Below, piece after piece: positions 2,244-14,703 of a DNA stretch of 64,000 nt. Numbering within the stretch: the stretch's first letter is position 1; each line of letters starts with the position of its first letter. Made by a program: the position numbers and the translations under genes. The stretch comes from Billgrantia ethanolica (lineage in GTDB: Bacteria > Pseudomonadota > Gammaproteobacteria > Pseudomonadales > Halomonadaceae). A model generated the notes under the pieces. The model had not been told where the DNA came from. It did no database searches and worked only from the letters and a program-made list of their open reading frames with translations. The stretch covers positions 1,674,001-1,738,000 of the forward strand of contig NZ_JABFTX010000001.1 in assembly GCF_021404305.1 (NCBI RefSeq), in the 5' to 3' direction.

Positions 2244-2317
2244 GCGGGTGTAGCTCAATGGTAGAGCAGAAGCTTCCCAAGCTTAAGACGAGGGTTCGAT
2301 TCCCTTCACCCGCTCCA
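2244..2317 (+). tRNA. glyU: tRNA-Gly(CCC)
   Basis: The 74-nt sequence folds as a tRNA: acceptor GCGGGTG/CACCCGC, D arm GCTC-AATGGTA-GAGC, anticodon loop TTCCCAA (anticodon CCC), T arm AGGGTTCGATTCCCT and an encoded CCA end. It is very close to E. coli glyU. The top pair of the anticodon stem is a G-A mismatch. The 3' end doubles as the attachment site of the downstream integrative element. Confidence 0.95.
2293..2317. other. attL (left attachment site, within tRNA-Gly)
   Basis: GGTTCGATTCCCTTCACC and the following CGCTCCA are repeated at 12024-12048 with two differences; the last 17 bases of the tRNA are identical. A tRNA 3' end is the classic target of P4-type integrases. Confidence 0.9.
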
Positions 2318-2330
2318 ATGCCCATTTCCC

Positions 2331-2490
2331 TGTATGCCTACCAGTGTTCCCGAACTAGCTTAGAATCCTCGATGATACCGGCACTTAAGCCGGTTTTTTT
2401 GTGCCCCAATGTGCCTGAATGACGACGTACAGCGCTTGTCACCGTGTATGCCCCTGTGTATGCTTCGAATAGGGACAAACTGAGGCATAC
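2331..2490. promoter_or_regulatory. TGTATGCC motifs at the left end and int promoter (integrase/AlpA arm-type sites)
   Basis: The motif TGTATGC(C) occurs at about 2331, 2445 and 2456, and in reverse as GGCATACA at about 2483, just ahead of the integrase start. The same motif is doubled at 4688-4703 and at 11963-11984 near the right end. This distribution fits arm-type binding sites of the integrase or of the AlpA/Vis-like factor. In P4, Int and Vis both bind near att and repress int; transfer of that role here is inference. Confidence 0.5.
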
Positions 2491-2494
2491 AAAT

Positions 2495-3793
2495 ATGAAG
2501 CGGACTGAGATAAAGAAGCATCCCCTTCAAGATGCCGTGCTGGCCTCGCTGGAACCTGAGAGCCAGGCATACCGAGTACGAGACACCCACGATAAGCCGT
2601 TGTATTTCCGAGTGAAACCAAACGGTACGAAGTCATGGGAGCTGCGTTACAAGAAGCCTGACGGCTCATGGAGCTGGTACGGCTTGGGCGGCTATCCGGA
2701 CCTGACCGGCAAGGCTGCGAGGGCGAAGGCAGACGAAGCGCTCGAACTGGCACGCGAAGGCATCGACCTGGTGAAGCATCGCCGGGAACAGCGGGAAGCC
2801 GAGGATGTAGCCAAGCTCAATACCTTCCGCCGTGCCGCCGAATACTGGTATCAGCGCAAGGTTGAAGCCGGTCGAGCCGAGAAGACGCTGAAGGGAATGC
2901 GCTATGCCCTCGATAACGACATGCTCCCTGCCATTGGCGACCGCCAGCTCGATACCCTGACCCATGGTGACTGTGCCACCCTGCAAGAGAGCATCGAAGC
3001 CAGGGGAGCCCACAACACAGCCGAGAAGGTGCGCGTCTGGCTGCGTGACATCTTCGGCGTGGCCATGGCCAAAGGCTGGTGCCAGCACAACCCCGCCACG
3101 GAAATGCACCGTGTAGCCGCTGAGGCCCCGAAGGAACAGCAGTACCCCCATCTATACGAGTCGGAGCTACCGGCCTTCCTGGGGGCTCTACGGCGCTCTA
3201 GGAGCCGCCTTATCGTATCCACCGCCACATGGATGACGCTCTACACCGCTTCACGCCCTGGCATGGTGCGTATGGCCGAATGGACAGAACTCGACCTAGA
3301 CAACGCCCTATGGTCAGTGCCTGCCGAGAAGATGAAGATGGGACGCCCTCACCTGGTCCCCCTGCCCCGCCAGGTTGTCGAGATGTTGCGCGACCTCAAG
3401 CGCGTATCGGGACGCAGCAAGTGGGTATTCCCCAGCAGCGGGCCGAAGACGCCCTATATCAGCGATGCCACCATCAACAAGTGCATTGCCTTAGTCGGCT
3501 ATAAAGGACGCCTGACCGGCCACGGATCGCGCCACACGTTCAAGACGCTCGTATCTGAACATGGCTGGCCCGACAAATGGTCGGAGCGCCACCTGGCCCA
3601 CCTGAAGAAAGGCGAGGAGAAGACCTACAACAAGTCGGAGTACCTGGCCCCGCGTCGTCTCATGGTGCAGTGGTACGCCGACTATCTCGACGCCCTGGAA
3701 GCCGGATTGACCAAGGAGCAGAAGGTCGACTTTGCCAAGCGGGTACGCCAGGCACAGGAAACCAATGTTGTTGAGCTGGTGAGGCGAGCATGA
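2495..3793 (+). CDS. int: P4-type tyrosine integrase
   Basis: A 432-residue site-specific recombinase. The N-terminal 100 residues form the arm-binding DUF4102-like domain (SWELRYKKPDGSWSWYGLGG), residues 105-205 the core-binding SAM-like domain, and residues 220-400 the catalytic domain. Visible catalytic positions are R254 (TASRPGM), K281 (KMKMGRPH), H343/R346 (GHGSRHTF), H368 (LAHLKKG) and the nucleophile Y378 in KTYNKSEYL, the wording typical of P4 integrases. The ATG at 2495 is preferred over one at 2444 because the 17 extra codons would be the TGTATGCC motif region. It lies next to attL, as expected, and ends in an ATGA overlap with the next gene. Confidence 0.95.
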   Translation: MKRTEIKKHPLQDAVLASLEPESQAYRVRDTHDKPLYFRVKPNGTKSWELRYKKPDGSWSWYGLGGYPDLTGKAARAKADEALELAREGIDLVKHRREQREAEDVAKLNTFRRAAEYWYQRKVEAGRAEKTLKGMRYALDNDMLPAIGDRQLDTLTHGDCATLQESIEARGAHNTAEKVRVWLRDIFGVAMAKGWCQHNPATEMHRVAAEAPKEQQYPHLYESELPAFLGALRRSRSRLIVSTATWMTLYTASRPGMVRMAEWTELDLDNALWSVPAEKMKMGRPHLVPLPRQVVEMLRDLKRVSGRSKWVFPSSGPKTPYISDATINKCIALVGYKGRLTGHGSRHTFKTLVSEHGWPDKWSERHLAHLKKGEEKTYNKSEYLAPRRLMVQWYADYLDALEAGLTKEQKVDFAKRVRQAQETNVVELVRRA

Positions 3794-4347
3794 AAAGAAT
3801 TGAATTCGACCCGTATCAGTGGGCAAGAGAAGGATATTGCGAAGATCCGCATCAAAACCCTGGTGAGCTTATCAGGTCATGCGTTTCTCAAGTCGAGCAA
3901 CTGCGCTTGGAAAACCCAAGGAACCGAGAGATAGCCCAGCGAGCCGTTGACTTTGCAAATTTGGTAGCAGGCATCGTTGATACTTGGCCAGGGAGTGACG
4001 ATGAGGAGCAAAATGAGAAGGTGCGGAAAACAATTGTCGGCGCTTACCTAATGGGCTTGGAAGCCGCATCCCTTGCCGTTGACACCCGCACCATGGGAAC
4101 CAGCGTTGAAGAGGCAATTGAGAAACTGAAAAAGGAGGGGCTGCGCGCAGCAGCAAAGGCGGCAGCGGATGCACGACACAACAAGCCCGGTGGAAGTCGA
4201 GAGTTAAAGGAAAAAATTCGCGCCATATGGGCTACAGGAAAATACAGCTCCCGTGACATATGTGCTGAAGAAGAATGGGCGGCCTTAGGCTACAAATCTT
4301 TTGCCGCAGCGAGAAAGGCTTTACGCAACACCAAAGACCCGACCTAG
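3790..4347 (+). CDS. hypothetical satellite protein
   Basis: A 185-residue soluble protein whose start codon overlaps the integrase stop (ATGA), so it is translationally coupled. It is helical and charged; residues 60-110 contain a mixed segment (AVDFANLVAGIVDTW, KTIVGAYLMGLEAASLAV), residues 115-140 are Lys/Ala-rich, and the C-terminal 40 residues (SSRDICAEEEWAALGYKSFAAARKAL) read like a small helix-turn-helix. Similar small frames sit behind integrases in many P4-like islands. I do not recognise a function. Base use is less GC-rich than in the chromosome around the element. Confidence 0.75.
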   Translation: MKRIEFDPYQWAREGYCEDPHQNPGELIRSCVSQVEQLRLENPRNREIAQRAVDFANLVAGIVDTWPGSDDEEQNEKVRKTIVGAYLMGLEAASLAVDTRTMGTSVEEAIEKLKKEGLRAAAKAAADARHNKPGGSRELKEKIRAIWATGKYSSRDICAEEEWAALGYKSFAAARKALRNTKDPT

Positions 4348-4444
4348 CCTGTACGCGCAGAGGACAGCCGCTGCGCGCAATGCGTATTCTGGCCAGTGCC
4401 AGCCTATGAAAAATTGAGAGCGTAACTCATATGGAGGCGTTCTC

Positions 4445-4669
4445 ATGAATCTTGAAGCACTGCCCTTAGACAATCAGCTCATCACCCAGCAGAACCTTTG
4501 CCGCTCGCTCGACATGACACGGAGCGGCATCGCCAAGCTGAGGTTGAATGACCCCACCTTTCCCCGCCCCATCAAGTTCAGCGACAGCAAGCAGGCGACC
4601 TGCTATTTCTCCGTTGCTGAAGTACAGGAATGGATAGAGTCCAAGCTGGCCGAGCGAGGTACAGCCTAA
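4445..4669 (+). CDS. alpA: AlpA/Vis-family transcriptional regulator and excisionase candidate
   Basis: A 74-residue protein with the winged MerR-like fold of the AlpA family: TQQNLCRSLDMTRSGIAKLRLNDPTFPRPIKF followed by a short strand and EVQEWIESKL. The SGIAKLRLNDPTFPRPI stretch is the family hallmark. AlpA/Vis proteins of P4-like elements act as excisionases and promoter repressors. GGAGG lies eight bases ahead of the ATG. It stands between integrase and immunity region, as in P4 relatives, and its stop codon overlaps the next start (TAATG). The repeated TGTATGCC motif may be its binding site. Confidence 0.9.
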   Translation: MNLEALPLDNQLITQQNLCRSLDMTRSGIAKLRLNDPTFPRPIKFSDSKQATCYFSVAEVQEWIESKLAERGTA

Positions 4670-5109
4670 TGGTCTTGACACGTTCTTGTATGCCTGAGTA
4701 TGCTCAAGGTGCTGCTGCAAATTCAGTAGCCGACCTTGGCCGGTCGAGAGAAACTTGGCGCACAAGCGCCCCTACCATGTCAGGCGCTTTTTTCATGCCT
4801 GCCATGCGCTATGGCGGCTGTGCGTGGGACACCTTCGGGTGTGCCGGGTTCCAAGTTTCCCGGTCGGCCAACCCGCGTACAGTCGCCCCCATCCGCTGCT
4901 TGGCCGCAGCCGGGGACGGCTCCAAACTTGGAGACCTACCCATGGCATCATTCCGCCTATTCCCTACCCGCAAAGTGTCCGAACGCGCCGCTGCTCATCG
5001 AGCAATGGCTAAGGCCGCTCTCTTCTCCGATTCAAGCGCTGCCGTCCGGCTTAAGCGCTACAACTCCCACATGGCTAAGGCCCGCCGCCTCGAAGGAGGT
5101 GCAGCATGA
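4669..5109 (+). CDS. Ash/Icd-like protein overlying the immunity RNA
   Basis: A 146-residue frame whose ATG overlaps the alpA stop (TAATG). Residues 45-85 (AFFMPAMRYGGCAWDTFGCAG, FQVSRSANPR) resemble the Ash-family and host-cell-division-inhibitor Icd-like frames of P4-type satellites. The DNA under this segment is the candidate CI-RNA, so much of the conservation may reflect RNA rather than protein. An internal terminator at 4764-4793 would stop most transcripts before the frame is completed. The C-terminal 60 residues (FRLFPTRKVSERAAAHRAMAKAAL onward) are basic and helical. Whether full-length protein is made is uncertain. Confidence 0.55.
   Translation: MVLTRSCMPEYAQGAAANSVADLGRSRETWRTSAPTMSGAFFMPAMRYGGCAWDTFGCAGFQVSRSANPRTVAPIRCLAAAGDGSKLGDLPMASFRLFPTRKVSERAAAHRAMAKAALFSDSSAAVRLKRYNSHMAKARRLEGGAA
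4675..4704 (+). promoter_or_regulatory. PLE-like early promoter of the satellite
   Basis: A perfect TTGACA (4675-4680) is followed after 18 bp by TATGCT (4699-4704). The spacer and -10 overlap two TGTATGC motifs, the same motif as at the att ends, which would let the AlpA/Vis-like protein block it. It lies just upstream of the CI-RNA-like region, in the position of P4's PLE promoter. Confidence 0.55.
4736..4931 (+). ncRNA. P4-type CI-RNA immunity region (seqA-seqB-seqC arrangement)
   Basis: Three related blocks are visible. seqA (4736-4758) reads TTGGCCG, 8 bases, AAACTTGG. seqC (4900-4931) reads TTGGCCG, 17 bases, AAACTTGG. Between them seqB (4851-4871) reads CCAAGTTTC then CCGGTCGGCCAA and is complementary to both. 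This is the layout of phage P4 immunity, where a short CI RNA carrying seqB pairs with seqA or seqC in the leader and causes early termination. A stable hairpin (ACACC-TTCG-GGTGT, about 4840-4853) precedes seqB. The mature RNA would lie roughly in 4795-4895; its ends cannot be set from sequence. Confidence 0.65.
4764..4793 (+). terminator. terminator inside the immunity leader
   Basis: AAGCGCC pairs with GGCGCTT across a 12-base loop and is followed by a T run. An alternative hairpin, GGCGC-ACAA-GCGCC, uses the same left arm, so the terminator can be switched. It lies between seqA and seqB, as expected for control by premature termination. Confidence 0.7.
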
Positions 5110-5363
5110 AATTCACCGATACCGACCGCTACCAACTGTCTCGTGCCTGCCTGGGCGGCTGTGCTGACGAGATGGCGAAAAGCTCCCATGCCATGAGCGC
5201 CATTATCCGGCTACTCCAGCTCGACCTGAATGGAGAAATCGAGCTGAACGACTTCCACCGGGAGGGACTGCTGAACGCTCTCGACCAAATGACCGCTGGT
5301 CTGAGCCGCCGCGCCTCATTCGCCGAGTCCCAACTGGATAAGGAGTTCGAGAATGACGATTGA
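5106..5363 (+). CDS. small hypothetical satellite protein
   Basis: 85 residues; the start overlaps the preceding stop (ATGA). Acidic, helical and without a membrane segment (SAIIRLLQLDLNGEIELNDFHREGLLNALDQMTAGL). The composition resembles small phage early-region proteins with a helix-turn-helix-like or dimerisation role, but I recognise no family. It ends inside the next gene. Confidence 0.65.
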   Translation: MKFTDTDRYQLSRACLGGCADEMAKSSHAMSAIIRLLQLDLNGEIELNDFHREGLLNALDQMTAGLSRRASFAESQLDKEFENDD

Positions 5364-5532
5364 TTCAGATGCCCTTTATCTCGACCTCGATACCGGCAAG
5401 GCCAGGGTACGCAAGGGAGCCGTCTGGATTCCCGTCGAGCGTCTGCTGGCTGACTCCGAGGCAAGCGAGGAGCTGAAGCGCCAGGTTCGTGAGGCGCTGC
5501 GCCTGTGTGGGCTGGGAGGTGCGAATGACTGA
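5353..5532 (+). CDS. 59-residue hypothetical satellite protein
   Basis: A short frame starting with ATG at 5353, overlapping the previous gene by 11 bp and the next by 8 bp, with GGAG upstream inside the preceding gene. It reads MTIDSDALYLDLDTGKARV, then RKGAVWIPVERLLADSEASE and a helical tail ending CGLGGAND. The beta-rich first half with a VWIPVERLL segment looks folded. Tight overlaps on both sides make it a likely real member of the early operon. Function unknown. Confidence 0.6.
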   Translation: MTIDSDALYLDLDTGKARVRKGAVWIPVERLLADSEASEELKRQVREALRLCGLGGAND

Positions 5533-5719
5533 CCTCGACCGTGAGCAAATCGGCAGCATTTCGACCGCCCTGGCTCGTATCTGTGACGCCATGGAGCGCG
5601 AATGCTCGGAAGGTCGGCACATCGACCTCGCCACCACTCGCCAGCACATCAAGCAGCTACGCCTAGCGTCCCGGCTGCTGTGGTTGCTTCGGGAGGAGAA
5701 GCCATGCAAGCACAAATGA
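5525..5719 (+). CDS. 64-residue hypothetical satellite protein
   Basis: A helical protein (TDLDREQIGSISTALARICD, then LATTRQHIKQLRLASRLLWL) ending in a basic tail. Its start lies within the end of the preceding frame and its own end overlaps the next start at 5704. No membrane segment or known motif. Its position in a run of overlapping genes supports translation. Confidence 0.6.
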   Translation: MTDLDREQIGSISTALARICDAMERECSEGRHIDLATTRQHIKQLRLASRLLWLLREEKPCKHK

Positions 5720-6222
5720 AAACGCCTGACCTTGGGGGAGGCCAGGCGCAAAGGAATACAGGGATAACCCATCATACCGCCGATGTTAATGGACTGCTAG
5801 CCCGCCTCGATAAGGTGAAGCGGACAGGACAAGGCCGATGGGTTGCCTGCTGCCCTGCCCACCAAGACAAGCACCCTTCGCTGTCTGTTCGTGAGACTGA
5901 CGATGGCACTGTCTTGGTGAAGTGCTGGGCTGGCTGTGGCGCTGCTGATGTGGTGGCTGCCGTTGGCCTGAGCCTGGCTGACCTGTTCCCCAATCGACCT
6001 GATGACCATCACCGGAAGCCCCTTTCAAAGGGGCAACGGTGGATACCCCGAGACGTGCTCGGTTGTGTCGCCAGAGAGGCCCTAATCGCCCTTCTGGCAG
6101 CCGAGCAAGTCAGCAAAGGGGTAGCCCTGCATGAGGACGATATTCAACGCCTGGCGGTCGCTGCTGGCCGCCTTCGCGCTGCTGCTGAGGGAGTAGGTTA
6201 TGAGTTCAAACTTAGCCGTTGA
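5704..6222 (+). CDS. primase-type CHC2 zinc-finger protein
   Basis: 172 residues. Residues 26-95 form a CHC2 zinc-ribbon of DNA primases: VACCPAHQDKHPSLSV, then VLVKCWAGCGAADVVAAVGL, with C50, H53, C74 and C78 as zinc ligands. The catalytic Toprim domain of a full primase is absent; the rest is helical. In P4-like islands this half often sits next to a helicase-like DUF3631 protein, and together they serve the role that the P4 alpha protein fulfils alone. GGGAGGAG precedes the ATG. The gene overlaps the following one by 23 bp, indicating translational coupling. Confidence 0.8.
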   Translation: MQAQMKTPDLGGGQAQRNTGITHHTADVNGLLARLDKVKRTGQGRWVACCPAHQDKHPSLSVRETDDGTVLVKCWAGCGAADVVAAVGLSLADLFPNRPDDHHRKPLSKGQRWIPRDVLGCVAREALIALLAAEQVSKGVALHEDDIQRLAVAAGRLRAAAEGVGYEFKLSR

Positions 6223-7765
6223 TACCGGCGCGGCCTGGCTGGATGAACGTCGCAGCCTCGAAGACATGGCCGATGAGCACCGAACCGCTGAAGACGACGC
6301 CATGGACATTGTACGGGCTGCCCTTTCACGCTTGGACGATGACCCTGGCGCACTATTCGAGCCGGATATGCTGGAGCGTATCGCAGAGATTCGGCAGCGC
6401 AATGCCGCCGACTGGCAGCGAATCCGGGCCGATGCCAAGGCCAAGAAGGTGCAAGTCTCCGAGCTGGATAAGCTGACCCGTTCGGTTTCCAGTGGTGACG
6501 GTAGCGAGCTGTTCCCGGTCGTCACGCCCTGGCCTGAGCCAGTGGGCGGGGCTGCCCTGGTGCGGGAGCTATCGGACACGCTTCGGCGGTACGTGATATG
6601 TGAACCGGAGGTTGCCGACGCCGCCGCGCTATGGATTGCCTTCACTTGGTTCATAGACGAGGTACACGTCGCGCCGATCGCCAATATCACCGCGCCGCTG
6701 CCGAACTGTGGCAAGTCTACCTTGCTGGAGTTTCTGGAGACGTTCGCCTTCCAGCCGCTCAAGTGTGACGGCATTTCCCCCGCCGCGCTGTTCCGCTCCA
6801 TGGATAAGTGGACGCCTACCTTGCTCATCGACGAGGTAGATACCTTCCTGCGCGACAACGAAGACGCCCGAGGCGTGCTCAACTCAGGGCATCGCCGCAA
6901 CGGCTTCATCATTCGCGTGGTAGGTGATGACCATGAGCCGAAGCGGTTCGCTACCTGGGGAGCCAAGGCCCTGTGCGGTATCGGGGGCATTGCTAATACC
7001 CTGGCAAGCCGTTCGATTCGGTTGGAGCTAAGGCGAAAGCTGCCCCATGAGGAAGTGGAGAACATCCGCTTCATGCCTGCTGACCTGGCTAACCGGCTTC
7101 GCCGCCAGTTGGCCAGGCTTCAGGAAGACCTGAGCAGCGACGTAGCGAAGGCACGCCCGGAGCCGGTTCCCGGCCTGAGCAATCGCAGTGCCGACAACTG
7201 GGAGCCCTTGCAGCAGATTGCCGAGGCTATCGGCGGGGAGTGGCCCCAGCGCGTCCGCTCGATTGCCTTGGTTATTACCCGCATGGATGACTCGGAGCAG
7301 GCCCCGGACGTGGGCACGGAGCTGCTGAAGGACATCAAGACCGTCTTCGAGGAAAAGGCGGTTGACCGTATCTTCAGCACCCCGCTAGTGAACGCCCTTC
7401 ACGCCGACAGTGAAGCTCCCTGGAACACCTGGAACCGTGGTCAGCCAATCAGCGCCCGCCAGGTTGCGGCCAAGCTCTCGGACTTCGGCATCAAGTCGAA
7501 GCAGATTCGGATTGGCCACGAAACCAAGAAGGGATACCTACGCCAGGACTTCGAAGAAGCGTTTCGGCGGTATCTTTCCGCTGGCACCCCCGCCAGAAGC
7601 GAAACAACGAAACAACGCTTTGGAAACAGTGGGTTAAGTGCAATCCGTAACGAAACAAAGGGGCATCGTGTTTCGGATGGGAACAATCCTAAGCCATTGA
7701 ATCAAAAGGGATGTTTCGATGTTTCGGATACAGCTACCCCCTTCGGCGATGAGGAGCTGTTCTAA
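6200..7765 (+). CDS. DUF3631-domain ATPase (putative replication helicase)
   Basis: 521 residues. Residues 115-310 match the DUF3631 core: a Walker A variant at 165-173 (PLPNCGKST), SPAALFRSMDKWTPTLLIDEVDTFL with Walker B at 208-214, then LNSGHRRNGFIIRVVGDDHEPKRFATWGAKALCGIGG with sensor-like residues. The C-terminal 130 residues contain a winged-helix-like stretch (SARQVAAKLSDFGIKSKQIRI) that probably binds DNA at an origin. Coupled to the CHC2 protein upstream and, by TAATG, to the next gene. Likely role: unwinding at the satellite origin. The biochemical activity is inferred from the family. Confidence 0.85.
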   Translation: MSSNLAVDTGAAWLDERRSLEDMADEHRTAEDDAMDIVRAALSRLDDDPGALFEPDMLERIAEIRQRNAADWQRIRADAKAKKVQVSELDKLTRSVSSGDGSELFPVVTPWPEPVGGAALVRELSDTLRRYVICEPEVADAAALWIAFTWFIDEVHVAPIANITAPLPNCGKSTLLEFLETFAFQPLKCDGISPAALFRSMDKWTPTLLIDEVDTFLRDNEDARGVLNSGHRRNGFIIRVVGDDHEPKRFATWGAKALCGIGGIANTLASRSIRLELRRKLPHEEVENIRFMPADLANRLRRQLARLQEDLSSDVAKARPEPVPGLSNRSADNWEPLQQIAEAIGGEWPQRVRSIALVITRMDDSEQAPDVGTELLKDIKTVFEEKAVDRIFSTPLVNALHADSEAPWNTWNRGQPISARQVAAKLSDFGIKSKQIRIGHETKKGYLRQDFEEAFRRYLSAGTPARSETTKQRFGNSGLSAIRNETKGHRVSDGNNPKPLNQKGCFDVSDTATPFGDEELF

Positions 7766-8163
7766 TGGCTGCTCTCGATTATCTGAAACAGCATGGGCTC
7801 CACGTCGAGCCCTTCTCAGGAGACAAGATTGTCGTCAGGCCATCGGAGCGGCTTAACGATGAGCTACGCGCCTGGATTAAGGCCCACAAGGCCGAGCTGC
7901 TGGCTGAAGTTCGTGCCGATTCTACCGACTGGCTTTCATGGATCGCCGACCGCTGCCCCATGGTGCCGGAAGACCGTAGCCACGTCGCCCGGCTCATGCT
8001 GACCCTTCACCCTCGGATGCAACAGCGCCTCGCAGAACGATACGTCGAGGCATGGCGGTCTGCTGCTGACGATGAACCCACCTACCACCGCCGTGATAAC
8101 GCTGGCCGCCGTGCTGCAAACCTCATCATTACCAAACTCATGAAAGGTGACGATTATGTCTGA
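7765..8163 (+). CDS. hypothetical protein with TubC-docking-like N-terminus
   Basis: 132 residues; ATG overlaps the preceding stop (TAATG). Residues 3-52 (DYLKQHGLHVEPFSGDKIVV, then RAWIKAHKAELLAEV) have the helix-strand-helix wording seen in TubC-like N-terminal docking segments that also occur in proteins of many phage islands. The C-terminal half is Arg-rich and helical. Its place right after the replication ATPase suggests a partner in replication. No firm function. Confidence 0.6.
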   Translation: MAALDYLKQHGLHVEPFSGDKIVVRPSERLNDELRAWIKAHKAELLAEVRADSTDWLSWIADRCPMVPEDRSHVARLMLTLHPRMQQRLAERYVEAWRSAADDEPTYHRRDNAGRRAANLIITKLMKGDDYV

Positions 8164-8731
8164 TATGACCATCGACCAGCTTCAAGCTGAGAACGACTCC
8201 CTGACCGCTGAGCTTGAGAAAGTGAAGGCCAAGAATGCCGAGCTGCTGGGAAAGCTGAAAAAGGCTCAGCAAGGCAGCGGTGAATCATCGGAGCGCCTGG
8301 AAGCCCTGGAGGCGGAAAACGAAGGGCTGAAGACCGAGCTGCGAAAGTTCACCTTCGATGCCCCGGTAAACTCAATCTTCGAGAGTATCAGTGGTGCTGG
8401 AAAGATATTCCGAAAGGCTTTTGAAGAGCACTTCGACATTATCCAAGACGAAGAAGAAGGCAGGTTCTGGATTCATGAGAAGGATGGCAGTCCTACCTTG
8501 AAGCAAGTCAAGGTCGGCAAGTATGGGAACGACACTCAGCCAAGGGAATTGAGCGATGGCGAAATCAAAGACTTGATTCTTGAGCGTGAGTTGAAGGAGC
8601 TGGACTACTTCATTCCCAAGCCGGTGGGCAGCGGTGCGCCTGGCAGCAATGGGCGAGGCCACTACTACGTAAAGCCTGAGCCAGAGTCGCTTAGGAAGGA
8701 AGAGAAACCCCAGCAATTCGGCATCCGATAA
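8156..8731 (+). CDS. hypothetical protein with N-terminal coiled coil
   Basis: 191 residues from the ATG at 8156, preceded by AAAGGTG; a GTG three codons earlier is less likely. Residues 5-65 are heptad-rich and Glu/Lys/Leu-dominated (LQAENDSLTAELEKVKAKNA, then EALEAENEGLKTELRKF), a clear coiled coil. Residues 70-165 form a compact domain (NSIFESISGAGKIFRKAFEE, GRFWIHEKDG). It is the last gene before the capsid cassette. It could be a scaffold or a regulator; neither can be shown from sequence. Confidence 0.65.
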   Translation: MSDMTIDQLQAENDSLTAELEKVKAKNAELLGKLKKAQQGSGESSERLEALEAENEGLKTELRKFTFDAPVNSIFESISGAGKIFRKAFEEHFDIIQDEEEGRFWIHEKDGSPTLKQVKVGKYGNDTQPRELSDGEIKDLILERELKELDYFIPKPVGSGAPGSNGRGHYYVKPEPESLRKEEKPQQFGIR

Positions 8732-8916
8732 GCTATAATAGGGAGGTGTACTTTCCTGGTCGGTGGTACATCGGCGGCTCTAATGGGGCCGCCATCCTTC
8801 CGCCCTAATGGGGCACGCCAATCAGCCGCGCAGCGCTGGTAAAATTGCCCTAATGGGGCACACTCCGAGACTAATGGTCCGTGAGAATCACTCAACCCTT
8901 TTTCAAAGGTGATTCC
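8732..8916 (+). promoter_or_regulatory. non-coding block with four CTAATGG(GGC) repeats ahead of the capsid gene
   Basis: TAATGGGGC occurs at 8781, 8806 and 8851, and a shortened TAATGG at 8872, with spacings of 25, 45 and 21 bp. A TATAAT lies at about 8734. The block separates early and late genes and holds no frame of its own. It could be a late promoter with activator sites or a terminase recognition (pac/cos) region. Nothing else in the element carries these repeats. Confidence 0.5.
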
Positions 8917-9906
8917 ATGGCTACTGTACGCCTGACAGATATTATCGAACCCGCCGCCTTTACCGGCTATACGCTTCAAGAAACCATGCAGAAGACTGCC
9001 CTGGTGCGTGCTGGTGTCGCGGTCCGTAACAACGTCATTGCCGAGCAGCTTCGGGCTGGCTCTCACAGCTTCACCGTTCCTTTCTGGCGCGACCTGGAAG
9101 ACGACGAAGCCAACATCGTTAATGACGATCCCGAGATTCATTCCACCCCCAAGAAGATCGGCAGCGGCAAGCAAATCGTCCGCAAGTCCTATCTGCATCA
9201 ATCCTGGTCCGCTATGAACCTGGCGTCTGAAATCGCCGGGGATGACGCCCTGAAGAAGATTCAGAGCCGAGTGGTAGCGTATTGGGACCGCCAGCTTCAA
9301 AAGCGCCTAATCGCGTCCCTGCGCGGCATCATGGCTGATAACGTGGCCAACGATAGCAGCGACATGATTCTCGACATTTCTGCCGAGACTGGCGCTGCTG
9401 GTGTCTTCGGTGCTGAAGCCGTCATCGACGCTACCGGCACGCTGGGCGACTCCATGGGCAACCTGGTGTCGATCGCCATGCACTCCGACATCTACCGCCG
9501 TGCCCTGAAGAATGACCTCATCGAGTTCATTCCCGACTCCCAGGGCGGCACCATCGCCACCTTCCGGGGCCTGGCGACTGTGGTAGACGATGGCTTGCCG
9601 GTCGATGAAGGGGCTTATACCTCTGTGCTGTTCGGTGCTGGTGCAGTGGGCTACGGCACTGGCGAGCCGGTCGTCGCCGATGGCACGGAAGTCGAGAACC
9701 TGCCCTCTGCCGGTCGTGGTGGCGGTCAACAGATTCTCCATTCCCGTATGAACGTCGGCATTCACCCCGCTGGCTTCACTTGGGTCGAGGATACCGTCAC
9801 CGACGAATCCCCGAGCTTCGCCGAGCTAGCCCTTCCGGCCAACTGGAATCGCGTGGTCGAGCGCAAGGCCATCCCCCTGGCCTTCCTCATCGCCCGCGCC
9901 GAGTAA
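8917..9906 (+). CDS. major capsid protein, Gp13-like family
   Basis: 329 residues, the usual size for this coat-protein family. The N-terminal wording is diagnostic: VRLTDIIEPAAFTGYTLQET, FTVPFWRDLEDDEANIVND, then SWSAMNLASEIAGDDALKKI and AYWDRQLQKRLIASLRGIMA. No scaffold-protease or delta domain is fused and none is encoded nearby. The ATG at 8917 follows AAAGGTG; an earlier in-frame GTG at 8881 lacks a site. A hairpin and the small terminase gene follow. A capsid gene in an element this small implies that it builds its own shell, or alters the helper's, and needs helper portal and tail parts. Confidence 0.9.
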   Translation: MATVRLTDIIEPAAFTGYTLQETMQKTALVRAGVAVRNNVIAEQLRAGSHSFTVPFWRDLEDDEANIVNDDPEIHSTPKKIGSGKQIVRKSYLHQSWSAMNLASEIAGDDALKKIQSRVVAYWDRQLQKRLIASLRGIMADNVANDSSDMILDISAETGAAGVFGAEAVIDATGTLGDSMGNLVSIAMHSDIYRRALKNDLIEFIPDSQGGTIATFRGLATVVDDGLPVDEGAYTSVLFGAGAVGYGTGEPVVADGTEVENLPSAGRGGGQQILHSRMNVGIHPAGFTWVEDTVTDESPSFAELALPANWNRVVERKAIPLAFLIARAE

Positions 9907-9913
9907 TCCAGAG

Positions 9914-9933
9914 GAGGCCCCTTCGGGGGCCTC
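9914..9933 (+). terminator. hairpin between capsid and small terminase genes
   Basis: GAGGCCCC-TTCG-GGGGCCTC is a perfect 8-bp stem with a UUCG tetraloop, without a following T run. It could be a partial terminator or a stabiliser separating high capsid from low terminase expression. Confidence 0.55.
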
Positions 9934-9950
9934 TGCCAGGAGGTGAATAC

Positions 9951-10358
9951 ATGGCCAACGTGAAGTGCAACGGCAGCCAGAAGAAGCCGCCTCGGGGAGC
10001 GGCGAAGAAAATACTCGAGATGAGCCGGGAAGGGCTCTCTAAGGCCGGTATCGCTCGGGGGCTGGGCTGTTCCCCCAAGCTGTTGAATGCCTGGCTGGAC
10101 AGTTACCCCGAGCTGCAAAACGCCTTGGATGAAGGACGGGAGCTTGAGCATACCGAGCTGCGTAGCTCGCTCATGCAACAGGCCAGAGGCGGCAACGTTA
10201 CCGCCGCTATCTTCCTGCTGAAGTGCCGGCATGGCTACCGCGAAGGCGACCAAGGCGACCTTGCCAACCGTGTCAGCGTGACGTTTAACCTGCCGGGGCC
10301 GATGAAGCTAGAAGACTTCTCCAACGTCATCGAGGGGGAGTCGCATGCAGACGATTGA
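9951..10358 (+). CDS. terS: small terminase subunit (TerS)
   Basis: 135 residues. Residues 18-52 form a helix-turn-helix (LEMSREGLSKAGIARGLGCS, then LLNAWLDSYPEL) typical of terminase small subunits that recognise packaging sites. Residues 60-90 are the helical oligomerisation stretch (SLMQQARGGNVTAAIFLLKC). GGAGGTG lies ahead of the ATG at 9951. The end overlaps the large subunit start by 14 bp, the usual terS-terL coupling. Confidence 0.85.
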   Translation: MANVKCNGSQKKPPRGAAKKILEMSREGLSKAGIARGLGCSPKLLNAWLDSYPELQNALDEGRELEHTELRSSLMQQARGGNVTAAIFLLKCRHGYREGDQGDLANRVSVTFNLPGPMKLEDFSNVIEGESHADD

Positions 10359-11715
10359 GCTGAACGATTTTCAACAGAAGGTGCTGGCAACCCCCGAGGA
10401 ATTCGATTTGTTCCTGGGCGGCGGTCGTGGTGGCGGTAAGTCCTACTGCCTGGCCCTGCTGGCTATGCGCCACTTCGAGATGTACGCCGAGAAGGCCCGC
10501 ATCCTGTACTTGCGGAAGACCTACAAGGGGCTTGCTGACTTCGAGCTGATAACCCGCGAGCTGTTCGCCATGGTCTACGGCACGGCTGCCCGCTACAACG
10601 CCGGGGAGCATGTCTGGAAATTCCCGAATGGCGGCTACCTGGAGCTAGGCCAGCTCGAAACCCAAGGCGACTATGCCAAGTATCAGGGACGTTCGTTCAC
10701 GCTGCTGATTATTGACGAGGCGGGACAGTACCCAACCGCCGACCTGCTGGACATCATGCGCTCGAACCTGCGCGGCCCCAAGGAAATGCCCGTTCGTGTC
10801 GTTGTAGCGGCCAACCCTGGTGGCCCTGGGCATCATTGGCTTGCCCGTCGCTACGTCTTTCAGGCTGGCCCCTGGAAACCCTTCCATGAGAGCAAGAGCA
10901 AGCGTCAGTGGATCTACGCGCCCTCAACGTTCGATGGAAACCGCTTTATTGATACCGAGCAGTACAGGGACCAGCTCGAAAGCGCCTGTCCCGATGACCC
11001 GGAGCTGCTACGCGCCTGGCTTGAAGGGGATTGGGCAGTGAACCGAGGGGCCTACTTCGCTTCGGTGCTGGAGGAAGGCCGCAACGCCGTCGATACCTGG
11101 AAGGACATTCCCGAAGACTGGACCGTCTACCTCGCTCACGACTTCGGCAGCAGCGCCCCTAGCGTGACGTATATCTGCGCTATCTCACCGGGAGGTGAAG
11201 GCCCGGACGGGAAATTCTACCCGCGTAACAGCATCGTCCTGGTGGATGAGCTGCATACGGCTAGGCGGGAAAATCCCAACGTGGGGCTTGGCTGGACCGT
11301 GCCTGTGCTGGCTGAGGAAATCGTGAAGTGGTGTCGGGAGTGGGACGTGAAGCCGCAAGGCGTGGCCGATGACGCCATCTTCGCCAAGACCGGCTCGGGA
11401 GCGGGGAGTATCGCCGACGAGTTCAGCAAGGCAGGCGTCCAGTTCGATCCCGCGAAGAAGGCCGACCGAATCACCGGCTGGAACGTCATGCGCCGCCTAC
11501 TGGCCGATGCCGGGAAGCCCGATAAGCCGGGGCTCTATATTGCCCGTCATTGCGGGTATTTCTGGGAAACCGTGCCGTACCTCGCCAGGGACCAGAAGCG
11601 CATCGAGGACGTGGAGACTACCGGCCCTGACCACGCAGCCGATGCCGTGCGGTATGGCTGTCTGAGAAAGGAGCCCCACAAGGTCGGCATGAGACGAATC
11701 AGAGGAATGTTCTAG
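10345..11715 (+). CDS. terL: large terminase subunit (TerL)
   Basis: 456 residues, full length for a Terminase_6-type packaging motor. ATPase: Walker A GGGRGGGKS at 25-33, Walker B LLIIDEA ending at 126, and a coupling motif VVVAANPGGPGHHW. Nuclease, RNase H-like: acidic residues in YLAHDFGSSAPS, GVADDAIF and DHAADAVRYG. It would cut and translocate satellite DNA into proheads. With TerS it gives the element its own packaging specificity. No portal gene follows, which is unusual because portal normally comes next. Confidence 0.92.
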   Translation: MQTIELNDFQQKVLATPEEFDLFLGGGRGGGKSYCLALLAMRHFEMYAEKARILYLRKTYKGLADFELITRELFAMVYGTAARYNAGEHVWKFPNGGYLELGQLETQGDYAKYQGRSFTLLIIDEAGQYPTADLLDIMRSNLRGPKEMPVRVVVAANPGGPGHHWLARRYVFQAGPWKPFHESKSKRQWIYAPSTFDGNRFIDTEQYRDQLESACPDDPELLRAWLEGDWAVNRGAYFASVLEEGRNAVDTWKDIPEDWTVYLAHDFGSSAPSVTYICAISPGGEGPDGKFYPRNSIVLVDELHTARRENPNVGLGWTVPVLAEEIVKWCREWDVKPQGVADDAIFAKTGSGAGSIADEFSKAGVQFDPAKKADRITGWNVMRRLLADAGKPDKPGLYIARHCGYFWETVPYLARDQKRIEDVETTGPDHAADAVRYGCLRKEPHKVGMRRIRGMF

Positions 11716-12023
11716 CAGCAGGGGATTAGTCGGCGAGTGCCCCAGTCCATGAAAACCCCGACAGCCTGCGCGTCATCTCCGAGTTATGGCGGTGGCAGGC
11801 ACCCCGAGAGCCCTGGCCTTGTGCTGGGGCTTTCTCCATTTGAAATGGAGGTAGTGAGGTTTCCACGCTTGAAACCGAGAAACCTAATCGAGAGAGAGTA
11901 GCGTTTCCCGCGTTTGCCGTGACCTAAAAAAGGGGCTTAGAATGAGGCCAGCAGCTCCGGATTTGTATGCCTGTGTGTATGCCCAAGCTGCAAAACGCGG
12001 GTAAGATGTTGATTCCACTGTTC
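11716..12023. other. non-coding right end of the satellite
   Basis: No gene is visible between terL and attR. The stretch holds a terminator (11809-11834) and the doubled motif TTGTATGCCTGTGTGTATGC (from 11963), matching the motifs at the left end and at the early promoter, so it is probably the right arm of the attachment region. Confidence 0.6.
11809..11834 (+). terminator. terminator of the satellite late operon
   Basis: AGCCCTGG pairs, with wobbles, with CTGGGGCT and is followed by TTTCT, about 95 bp after the terL stop. Confidence 0.55.
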
Positions 12024-12048
12024 GGTTCAACTCCCTTCACCCGCTCCA
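12024..12048. other. attR (right attachment site)
   Basis: GGTTCAACTCCCTTCACC and the following CGCTCCA repeat the tRNA-Gly 3' end with two differences. There is no tRNA body upstream, so this is the duplicated attachment core and not a second tRNA gene. Confidence 0.9.
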
Positions 12049-12811: not shown

Positions 12812-12944
12812 CGCCACGCTTCGGATCCTGCTGGCACAGCGAGACCCACGCATCTCCCCTGTCGCTTCACACTCTCCCCCAGCGTCGCCAAAAATTAACT
12901 TTCATTAGCGCTTACCTGTTGCGGAAAAGTGGCAGTGTCGCAAA

Positions 12945-12964
12945 TACTGTACAAAAACACAGAA
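12945..12964 (+). promoter_or_regulatory. LexA (SOS) box of umuDC
   Basis: TACTGTACAAAAACACAGAA contains CTGT-N8-ACAG, the gammaproteobacterial LexA operator, ending 15 bp before the umuD start. It predicts DNA-damage induction of the operon. Confidence 0.85.
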
Positions 12965-12979
12965 TACCAAGGGACTCAC

Positions 12980-13420
12980 ATGACACTGGTAAACCTCATC
13001 CCAGCTCACCCTGAGCCGCCACCGCTTGCGCTGCCTCACCCGCTGGCCCTGGGCCGCGCCGGCCTCAGCGGCTTTCCCAGCCCAGCACAGGACTACGAAG
13101 GCCGTACGCTCGACCTCAACGAGCGCCTGGTCAAACGCCCCTCGGCGACGTTCTTCATGAGCGTTACCGGCGACAGCATGGAGCGCCTGGGGATCCACGA
13201 AGGCGACCTGCTGCTGGTCGACCGCTCACTCGAGCCTCGTCCCGGCCATATCCTGGTAGCCCTGATCGATGGCGAGATCACCGTCAAGCGATATGAGCTG
13301 CGCGGCAAGGTACCGTGCCTCTGCTCGGGCAACCCACGCTACGCGCCGATTCCGCTCGTCGATATCGAGTGTCAGGTGTGGGGCGTGGTGCGCTCGGTCA
13401 TCCACGAGTATCCGGTATGA
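12980..13420 (+). CDS. umuD: UmuD-like protein, SOS mutagenesis polymerase V subunit
   Basis: 146 residues, close to E. coli UmuD (139). The GFPSPAQDYEG segment matches the cleavage region, followed by the S24 peptidase domain with catalytic Ser in VTGDSMERLGI and Lys in GEITVKRYEL. RecA-stimulated self-cleavage yields UmuD', the partner of UmuC. The residue before the expected cleavage glycine is Ser, while E. coli has Cys and LexA has Ala. A LexA box lies directly upstream, and the stop overlaps the umuC start (ATGA), so the two are one operon. Confidence 0.93.
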   Translation: MTLVNLIPAHPEPPPLALPHPLALGRAGLSGFPSPAQDYEGRTLDLNERLVKRPSATFFMSVTGDSMERLGIHEGDLLLVDRSLEPRPGHILVALIDGEITVKRYELRGKVPCLCSGNPRYAPIPLVDIECQVWGVVRSVIHEYPV

Positions 13421-14703
13421 GCATGATCGGCCTGGTCGATTGCAACAGCTTCTACGTCAGCTGCGAACGTGTCTTCCAGCCCCGGCTGTGCGGGGTGCCT
13501 GTCGGGGTGATGTCGAACAACGACGGCTGCGTCATCGCGCTCTCCAACGAACTGAAGGCTCTCGGCATCAAGATGGGGACGCCGGCCTTCACGCTTCAGC
13601 CTCTAGTACGCAGCGGACAGATCCACCTGCTCTCCTCCAACTACGAGCTCTATGGCGACATGAGCCAGCGGGTGCAGGCCGTGCTCGAGGAGTTCAGCCC
13701 GACCGTGGAGCCCTACTCCATCGACGAGATGTTCGTTCGCTTCGACGGCTTCGCCCATGCGCCATTGCTCGAGCACGCCCGGCAGCTGCACCATAAGGTG
13801 CGCCGGTTCACCGGCATTCCGGTCTGCGTGGGCGTGGCGCCCACGCGCACCCTGGCCAAGCTGGCGAACCGTGCCGCCAAGAAGATACCGGCCTACCAGG
13901 GGGTCTGCATACTTCACGCCGGCAGCGCGGAAACCCGCAACTTGCTGCAAAAGACCGAACTGGGCGATGTGTGGGGCGTGGGCCGCCGGCTCGTCGAGCG
14001 CCTGGCCCTGATGGGCATCAAGAGCGCCTGGGACCTCGCCCAGGCCAACCCGAAGGAAATCCGACGCCGCTTCTCGGTCACTCTCGAACGCACCGCCCAG
14101 GAGCTGCGCGGCGTGCCCTGTATCGAGATGATCGACCTCGATGAGGCCCGCCAGCGCATCATGACCAGCCGCTCATTCGGCAAACTCACCGACGATCTGG
14201 ACGAGATTCGCGAGGCGACCCGACAGTACGGGCAGCGCAGCGCCGAAAAGCTGCGCCGCCAGAACGGCCTCGCCAAGGCGGTGCTGGTGTTCCTCAAGAC
14301 CAACCCGCACCGGCAGGACCTGTCCCAGTACTCACCGAGTCTGGTGCTTGAACTGCCCCGCCCCACCGCCGACAGCCGCGAGATACTGCATGCCGCCGGC
14401 CTCGCCCTGGAGCGGATCTACCGCAAGGGTTACCTGTACCAGAAAGGCGGCGTGATGCTGCTCGACCTGATCGGCGCCGACCGGCAGCAGCTCTCTTTAC
14501 TGGATACGCCCCAGAGCGATGCCGAGCGGCAGCGCAGCCAGAAGCTGATGGACGTGATGGATACCCTGAACCGCAGGATGGGGCGCGATACGGTGAAACT
14601 GGGCATGCCCACCCCCGGGGCGGCGTGGCACTTACGCTGCGCCCATCGCTCGGATAGGAGCACGACACGCTGGGATGAGCTGCCCAAAGTCAGGGCGCTA
14701 TAA
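13417..14703 (+). CDS. umuC: UmuC-like Y-family DNA polymerase V catalytic subunit
   Basis: 428 residues, full length. Palm motifs are intact: the N-terminal VDCNSFYVSCERVF, MSNNDGCVIALSNELKALGI, and PYSIDEMFVRFDG with the catalytic acidic pair. A helix-hairpin-helix stretch follows (ELGDVWGVGRRLVERLALMGI), then the little-finger domain. A DUF4113-like tail ends at AWHLRCAHRSDRSTTRWDELP. It carries out translesion synthesis with UmuD'. The stop codon lies three bases from the 3' end of the oppositely transcribed Rsm-like RNA copy 3, so both share one terminator region. Confidence 0.95.
   Translation: MSMIGLVDCNSFYVSCERVFQPRLCGVPVGVMSNNDGCVIALSNELKALGIKMGTPAFTLQPLVRSGQIHLLSSNYELYGDMSQRVQAVLEEFSPTVEPYSIDEMFVRFDGFAHAPLLEHARQLHHKVRRFTGIPVCVGVAPTRTLAKLANRAAKKIPAYQGVCILHAGSAETRNLLQKTELGDVWGVGRRLVERLALMGIKSAWDLAQANPKEIRRRFSVTLERTAQELRGVPCIEMIDLDEARQRIMTSRSFGKLTDDLDEIREATRQYGQRSAEKLRRQNGLAKAVLVFLKTNPHRQDLSQYSPSLVLELPRPTADSREILHAAGLALERIYRKGYLYQKGGVMLLDLIGADRQQLSLLDTPQSDAERQRSQKLMDVMDTLNRRMGRDTVKLGMPTPGAAWHLRCAHRSDRSTTRWDELPKVRAL

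Follow-up and report, generated by a model that had tools for sequence, protein, structure and literature searches.

In a 64,000-nucleotide stretch of the Billgrantia ethanolica genome (NZ_JABFTX010000001.1, positions 1,674,001 to 1,738,000), called the window here at its full length, an integrated element of 9.7 kb occupies window positions 2293-12048 in a tRNA-Gly(CCC) gene, with all its genes on the + strand. We hold with moderate confidence that this island is an intact phage satellite carrying its own shell and packaging motor and no portal, and that, most likely, its shell is built around the portal of a helper phage, filled by its own terminase and completed with helper tails. Genomes and loci are given below by G and L numbers, and papers are cited for those excerpts of their text that bear on the point in question.

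The head module of the island

Four genes in the right half of the island make up its head module, in the order scaffold-MCP-TerS-TerL:

8147..8731, + strand: head scaffolding protein (PHROG 206, E 1.5e-8), adjoining the capsid gene in relatives too
8917..9906, + strand: major capsid protein (MCP) of the SPP1 gp13 type (PHROG 247, E 7e-98; PDB 4an5/6r3a, E 4e-54)
9951..10358, + strand: small terminase subunit (TerS; PHROG 309, E 3e-15)
10345..11715, + strand: large terminase subunit (TerL; Pfam Terminase_3, E 4e-11; PHROG 2, E 1.5e-33)

An earlier sequence-only reading of this DNA, made without database searches, had already named a Gp13-like capsid protein, TerS and TerL, and each of these is borne out by Pfam or PHROG matches; the module has four genes because the scaffold at 8147-8731 had been missed. 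The MCP scores 28.9 bits with Pfam Gp13-like (cut-off 26.4) and matches 4an5 and 6r3a, which are SPP1 entries (PMC6813328), with an E of 4e-54 as a single sequence and of 2e-66 as a profile; an AlphaFold model of it was set aside for its mean pLDDT of 37. At the position of SPP1 gp13 Tyr18, a residue required for scaffold-dependent assembly (PMC6813328), a tyrosine is found in 24/24 satellite rows of the alignment and in 6/24 phage rows. Four phage records that carry this MCP are arranged as terminase-portal-head morphogenesis (MuF)-scaffold-MCP-connectors-tail, some with intervening genes and two with the scaffold annotated as hypothetical, whereas the satellites are without portal and MuF and have the two remaining halves joined in either order.

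Of 13 island proteins, scanned with Pfam and PHROGs (three small ones with PHROGs alone, the other 10 with both), none was assigned to a portal, protease, connector or tail family, and neither head-tail connectors nor an HNH endonuclease turned up; a head maturation protease was likewise missing from the scanned proteins, the sole protease PHROG of the scaffold being a weak match (E 0.016). The single unassigned open reading frame (ORF) of portal size in the island lies antisense to the DUF3631 gene. A search with 11 portal references plus the DUF4055 portal profile, which recovered all three positive controls (one of them, L037, a self-match), found a portal in 0/14 elements taken as complete, that is, the island and 13 relatives. 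The other ORFs above 300 aa scanned in these 14 elements also gave no portal-family match: they are integrases, replication proteins or proteins of no assigned function, such as one of 354 aa in L009, antisense to a replication gene, and one of 491 aa in L058. The island thus has its own shell and motor and no portal or tail genes that we could find, and therefore portal and tail are probably borrowed from a helper virus.

Relatives and their gene sets

The sequence-only reading had proposed a search for the same gene order in Halomonadaceae, and relatives with the order scaffold-MCP-TerS-TerL were indeed found. Among 275 genomes of this host family, six match the MCP, four of them with satellites (G000, the host genome itself, G059, G193 and G225) and two with portal-bearing prophages (G106, G194). 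With the single MCP protein as query, 84,980 species genomes yielded 7 loci and IMG/VR 21; IMG/VR scanned with the MCP alignment gave 13 loci and with the TerL alignment 113, of which 80 were kept. In a sample of the phylum, 5/398 genomes match the MCP profile, one being the window's own and the other four scoring 197-252 bits, within the range of phage MCPs as judged by scores alone. Relatives were found in Halomonadaceae, Marinobacter, Rhodoferax and Edaphobacter and on 8.7-kb plasmids; the scaffold-MCP DNA of the Klebsiella plasmid had no match in E. coli genomes.

The 14 elements taken as complete are the island, L007-L012, L016, L035, L051, L053, L058, L190 and L191. Their ends were set by tRNA-derived attachment (att) repeats of 46-48 bp in L007, L010 and L011 and of 47 bp in L016, where each end of the contig carries the 3' end of a tRNA; by a repeat of just 14 bp in L009, L012 and L035; by one tRNA or tmRNA end alone in L008 and L053; by terminal overlap in L051 and L058; and by circular plasmid records in L190 and L191. 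Nine of the 14 carry all four head genes, six as scaffold-MCP-TerS-TerL (the island, L007, L008, L010, L011, L016) and three as TerS-TerL-scaffold-MCP (L009, L012, L053), and five have no TerL (L035, L051, L058, L190, L191), among which some carry a TerS-like or DUF5681 gene. Element sizes, where measured, are 7.8-12.0 kb. The replication genes vary (DUF3631, DUF3987, AAA_25, Prim-Pol, DUF5906, Rep_1), as do the integration sites, and since both differ so widely the head module behaves as a cassette.

Smaller combinations exist as well. L190 and L191, 8.7-kb circular plasmid records from Moellerella and Klebsiella pneumoniae, carry an integrase, a scaffold and an MCP of the satellite clade, with no portal or TerL found, and L084, L061, L072 and L074 carry an integrase, a replication gene and satellite-type TerS and TerL with no capsid gene among the scanned proteins; L084 (7.7 kb) looks circular because its terminal overlap sits away from the probable att site. 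The earlier description of the island as having the smallest head module known therefore fails, given the relatives with scaffold and MCP and no TerL (L035, L051, L058, L190, L191) or with TerS and TerL and no such MCP (L084).

Phylogeny and selection

Identity between the window MCP and the phage MCPs found is low, at about 32-45%, and in a tree of 42 MCP rows a single branch, with support 100/99, parts 22 satellite rows from 20 phage rows. A row counts as a satellite in this tree if no portal is seen in its locus, and seven of these rows are short or cut contigs (L014, L015, L052, L054, L055, L064, L076) and four more have undefined ends (L017, L056, L057, L060); in the phage group 17/20 rows have a portal, and L020, L023 and L034 are cut or unread upstream. 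Left out of the tree were short copies of included loci (L001-L006, L134), near copies judged from scores (L026, L027, L031, L033), L088, whose MCP and portal lie on the strand opposite its TerL, and matches below 800 nt or 140 bits (L032, L058). A second tree, restricted to the 14 elements taken as complete plus 17 rows of the phage type, gives the same split with the same support; 16 of those 17 have a portal, and the other, L192, a 7-kb plasmid record from Acinetobacter that has a minor capsid gene, was placed among the phages with no portal in view. The hosts named in the MCP tree belong to Halomonadaceae, Marinobacteraceae, Comamonadaceae and Acidobacteriaceae.

The ratio of nonsynonymous to synonymous substitution rates (dN/dS) is below 0.3 in each pair with a computable dS, and there are no internal stops, which points to purifying selection. 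It is 0.05-0.20 for the MCP, 0.05-0.14 for TerL, 0.13-0.25 for the scaffold, 0.11-0.29 for TerS and 0.20-0.29 for orf132, the ORF just before the scaffold gene, by a simple count method, with one TerS pair without amino-acid change and all pairs of saturated dS excluded; these ratios are rough, because dS exceeds 1 in many pairs.

An RNA at the end of terL

At the 3' end of terL lies an RNA that had gone unnoted in the sequence-only reading, the TerL stop falling within the match:

11710..11766, + strand: RF03044 (Proteo-phage-1) RNA (39.9 bits, E 8e-6, gathering score 42; its pseudoknot covaries)

RF03044 also follows terL in L007, L008 of G059 (37.9 bits), L016, L054 and L055, and a match at the gathering score was not reported in L009-L012, L014, L015, L017, L035, L051-L053, L056-L058, L060, L064 and L076. 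Absent from the structure line in the cmscan output is a pseudoknot helix between the loop and the 3' tail; it is 98% paired over 20 sequences, which were picked for matching RF03044, and it has two-sided changes in 4/5 pairs, values reached by 0/500 shuffles, a count that is not a probability.

The 275 family genomes hold 17 copies in 16 genomes, 3/17 of them in satellites of the present class, and a sample of the host's taxonomic class has the RNA in 2/369 genomes, one being G000. For the other 14 copies, an integrase lies no more than 10.5 kb upstream in 11 and the distal genes differ: they include portal-containing head sets in three (L172 of G000, L157, L158), an MCP as the only recognised head gene in two (L162, L167) and TerS in L159, and L160 (12838-14232; 11290-12813) has an integrase-family gene, TerL, a tail-fibre/tape-measure-like protein and the RNA. 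The distal genes of L161, L166, L168, L164 and L165, of about 245-333 aa, possibly encode unrecognised capsid proteins; two proteins each of L161 and L164 gave no PHROG. On the short contig L163 a CRISPR-DR4 repeat array follows the RNA at a distance of about 2.7 kb.

A cos site of the P2/P4 type shared with the helper was considered for RF03044 and rejected, as P2 and P4 have no match at E<=1, the portal-adjacent copy in G000 sits in a second satellite, and the RNA is common to satellites with distant terminases (best matches PHROG 2 and PHROG 9). Because such satellites share it, a packaging site seems to us less likely than an RNA with a regulatory or 3'-end role. The name occurs in no paper of the literature searched, and no published function was found for the family.

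Helper candidates in the host genome

A P2-like prophage in the same genome (L193-L194, G000:C10:1484000-1523800) matches 20/25 of the P2 proteins tested, portal, head and tail proteins among them, and is a candidate helper. A second satellite, L172 (G000:C10:1034600-1046500), lies in tRNA-Pro with a 42-bp att repeat and encodes an HK97-type set of MCP, protease, portal, TerL and head-tail adaptor, with RF03044 at its end and no TerS picked up. Further prophages are possible in this genome, which has three more TerL matches. A P2-like helper would fit the P4-type left half of the island, and an SPP1-like siphophage would fit its head.

Left half and ends of the island

The left half and the two ends contain the following features:

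2244..2317, + strand: tRNA-Gly(CCC), the attachment gene (ARAGORN and Rfam)
2293..2317, + strand: attL core, the last 25 nt of the tRNA 3' end (25-nt direct repeat, 23/25 against attR)
2445..2463, + strand: putative integrase arm site (19-nt element)
2495..3793, + strand: tyrosine integrase (Pfam Arm-DNA-bind_3, Phage_int_M, Phage_integrase; P4 Int, E 6e-52)
3790..4347, + strand: orf185 (no PHROG; Pfam GemA below cut-off)
4445..4669, + strand: AlpA-like regulator/excisionase (Pfam 16.9 bits, cut-off 21; PHROG 4745, E 1e-4; PHROG 66, E 5e-4)
4807..4893, + strand: C4 antisense RNA, of the P4 immunity RNA family (RF01695, 79.5 bits, gathering score 45)
5106..5363, + strand: orf85 (no PHROG)
5353..5532, + strand: orf59 (no PHROG)
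5489..5719, + strand: orf76 (PHROG 7934 weakly, E 0.035)
5602..6222, + strand: primase zinc-ribbon protein, start uncertain (Pfam Zn_ribbon_DnaG, E 5e-6; PHROG 6088 DNA primase, E 1.5e-16)
6200..7765, + strand: DUF3631 protein, probably a replication ATPase (Pfam DUF3631, E 2e-46)
7765..8163, + strand: orf132, overlapping the scaffold gene (PHROG 852 of unknown function, E 1.5e-9; similar genes in other satellites)
11964..11982, + strand: putative integrase arm site (19-nt element)
12024..12048, + strand: attR core (direct repeat, 23/25 identical to the attL core)

The left half had been described as built on P4 logic, and much of this stands: the integrase, with all three Pfam domains above cut-off, is of the P4 type, the region resembling CI RNA is a C4 antisense RNA that scores higher (79.5 bits) than that of P4 itself (74.9), and both the primase zinc ribbon and the DUF3631 ATPase have their Pfam matches, as two separate proteins with no phmmer match to P4 alpha. 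The AlpA assignment is tentative, with PHROG E-values of 1e-4 to 5e-4 and a Pfam score of 16.9 bits under the cut-off of 21, and the protein has no phmmer match to P4 ORF88. Matches to isrK RNA occur just before the C4 RNA in L008 (5812-5891), L159 (2658-2741) and P4 (L171). No box of the form TGT-N12-ACA, which we take to be the P2-like late-control motif, occurs in the island, where about two are expected by simple base counting, so that this absence is uninformative.

The tRNA-Gly element with its att repeat, in a host of the halophile type (the family is Halomonadaceae), agrees with what had been claimed, and its boundaries are clear, yet they are not exact as had been stated, since the att cores are identical at 23/25 bases. 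The 19-nt element has only two matches in the 64-kb window (chance 0.09), just inside each island end, placed as integrase arm sites would be. Twelve loci were sampled around the left flank, one being the window itself; in each of the nine relatives read there the tRNA-Gly end is intact, and what follows it over the 1.3-1.5 kb visible is not the window's right flank, so that none is a clean empty site. The roughly 300 bases right of TerL hold only a 54-aa ORF without a PHROG, and PADLOC found no defence genes among six small ORFs. Beyond attR, at window positions 12929-14703, lie a UmuD-like gene (PHROG 811, E 7e-40) and an overlapping 462-aa ORF, UmuC-like as judged by eye.

Proposed assembly and alternative explanations

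In SPP1, the portal gp6, the scaffold gp11 and the MCP gp13 are the necessary and sufficient, minimal set for a packaging-competent procapsid, scaffold and MCP without gp6 give shells of normal and smaller size, and the terminase subunits recognise pac and pack DNA by the headful (PMC6316719). The island holds this minimal set minus the portal, and TerS and TerL in addition. Upon induction or infection by a helper, the element would excise and replicate, its own scaffold and MCP would polymerise into a procapsid, probably a small one, nucleated on the helper portal, its TerS and TerL would recognise the DNA of the satellite and pump it through that portal into the shell, and the helper neck and tail would complete the particle, the satellite thereby setting capsid size and packaging choice and taking portal, neck and tail.

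Several observations weigh against this assembly model. The DUF4055 portal, the partner of this MCP in phages, is found in 0/4 satellite-bearing family genomes (it occurs in 9/275 family genomes, eight above cut-off), and in the host genome a search with two portal families, DUF4055 and PF04860, gave nothing for the former and one P2-type plus one HK97-type portal for the latter. Mutating SPP1 Asp100 impairs assembly with the portal; the corresponding residue is Asn in 22/24 satellites and Asp in 15/24 phages, which may reflect an altered contact with the portal or be without meaning. The elements without TerL, or with TerS and TerL only, mean that the four genes need not act together; the TerL tree is mixed, with L079 and L080, contigs that bear a portal beside TerL, falling among the TerLs of satellites and TerL-only elements; the completeness of the 13 relatives varies; and the island is known here from its sequence alone, as to particle, excision and helper.

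An unlikely alternative, and the strongest of those considered, is capsid redirection or sabotage, in which the satellite MCP and scaffold would co-assemble with an SPP1-type MCP and portal of the helper, forcing small shells or poisoning helper assembly, and the terminase would redirect packaging separately. Redirection has precedents by unrelated proteins in P4 Sid and SaPI (Staphylococcus aureus pathogenicity island) CpmB/Rcm, with PLE TcaP as a further capsid redirector. Elements with scaffold and MCP and no TerL, and with TerS and TerL and no such MCP, both exist, so each part may pay alone, and SaPIs are known to have scaffold-like switchers that compete (PMC12409344); against it, the low identity of the window MCP to phage MCPs, given above, and its separate clade make mixed lattices less likely, and sabotage needs no full-length MCP under strong constraint. 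We think it improbable that the portal comes from elsewhere, be it an unrecognised satellite protein, the co-resident L172 or packaging without a phage-type portal. That second satellite does encode MCP, protease, portal, TerL and adaptor, and both satellites end in RF03044, but the shell proteins of L172 belong to another PHROG family (via homologues in L157), the island has no unassigned ORF of portal size except the one antisense to DUF3631, and we know of no tailed phage without a portal.

A decayed prophage, having lost its portal and tail genes and its mobility, is very improbable. A satellite might of course arise by such decay, and the att repeats differ at 2/25 bases, the integrase frame of L012 is split and a clean empty site was not found; standing against this are one MCP clade over several hosts and integration sites, with three gene sets and no portal in any, and the purifying selection on the satellite genes. 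The sequence-only reading had named a decayed full prophage with portal and tail genes in related genomes as what would speak against a satellite: no portal was found in the island or the 13 relatives taken as complete, and no relative with portal and tail in the MCP clade. Judged by the absence of portals in relatives, the separate MCP clade and the purifying selection, the island is not a decayed prophage.

Beyond the helper-portal model itself, we tentatively suggest, at somewhat less than even chances, that these elements form a separate old satellite lineage capturing only the portal-neck-tail unit of the helper, with shell and motor as exchangeable cassettes, a small SPP1-like shell and RF03044 as a satellite RNA. 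The portal would be the sole head part taken, the scaffold, the shell and in many cases the terminase being brought along, and the cassettes, alone or together, would be found in Proteobacteria and Acidobacteriota both on islands and on small plasmids. In Halomonadaceae, RF03044 would close the late operon in this satellite type and in others.

If the helper-portal model is true, it would be an undescribed way of hijacking phages, with the helper virus supplying portal and tail; it would mean that the boundary between satellite and helper can run at the portal, and would open to study in vivo what the portal must match: shell, motor or tail. It is directly testable because the related SPP1 head has been solved and reconstituted, and the small circular relatives in Klebsiella and Moellerella widen the question beyond halophiles.

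Comparison with known satellites

The island resembles the SPP1 head (gp1, gp2, gp6, gp11, gp13) in having equivalents of TerS, TerL, scaffold and MCP, and it differs in lacking the gp6 portal, in that gp7, gp12 and a head completion protein were not found, and in its changed gene order. Marine tycheposons, some of which are satellites, and virion-encapsidated integrative mobile elements (VEIMEs) are tRNA- or virion-associated elements that may overlap with the present class. The Vibrio PISP and cf-PISP plasmids share satellite-type head genes and small circular relatives, PISP carrying a capsid protein E, a protease and TerS and cf-PISP a fuller, portal-bearing head set, both from other MCP families (PMC13230959), and the Streptomyces satellites MulchRoom and MiniFlayer likewise have scaffold, MCP and both terminase subunits, together with a portal and a head-tail adapter, and are without key replication genes (PMC10690885).

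A portal-less class of this kind was not found in the excerpts of phage-satellite literature searched (PMC10803314, PMC11389934, PMC13230959, PMC10187409, PMC10872708 and PMC12324425 among others), the primary papers on cf-PICIs (capsid-forming phage-inducible chromosomal islands), SatelliteFinder, tycheposons and VEIMEs lying outside it, so that novelty is a fair claim and not a certain one. A 2025 paper states that described satellites, cf-PICIs excepted, depend on phage proteins for packaging (PMC12409344).

With P4 the island shares the P4-type integrase, the C4 antisense RNA, a tRNA site, a size of about 10 kb and, more tentatively, an AlpA-like gene and primase and ATPase genes, whereas P4 has no MCP or terminase in its sequence record and the island no phmmer match at E<=1 to the P4 proteins Sid, Psu, Delta and epsilon; it is thus P4-like in integrase and C4 RNA and not in these four. 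Like the cf-PICIs, it is a chromosomal satellite that supplies its own MCP, TerS and TerL and lacks tails; they encode an MCP, a maturation protease, a portal, head-tail connectors, both terminases and an HNH protein (PMC10690885), whereas the island has a scaffold gene and an MCP of the SPP1 gp13 type, and neither portal nor protease, connector or HNH was found in it. The background from which the sequence-only reading had started, P4 without its own MCP and terminase and cf-PICIs with portal and protease, agrees with the P4 record and the latter paper. Its proposal of an intermediate or distinct class holds in part: an intermediate is unsupported because the MCPs are a separate clade with no step between P4 and cf-PICIs, and what stands is a satellite class distinct from both.

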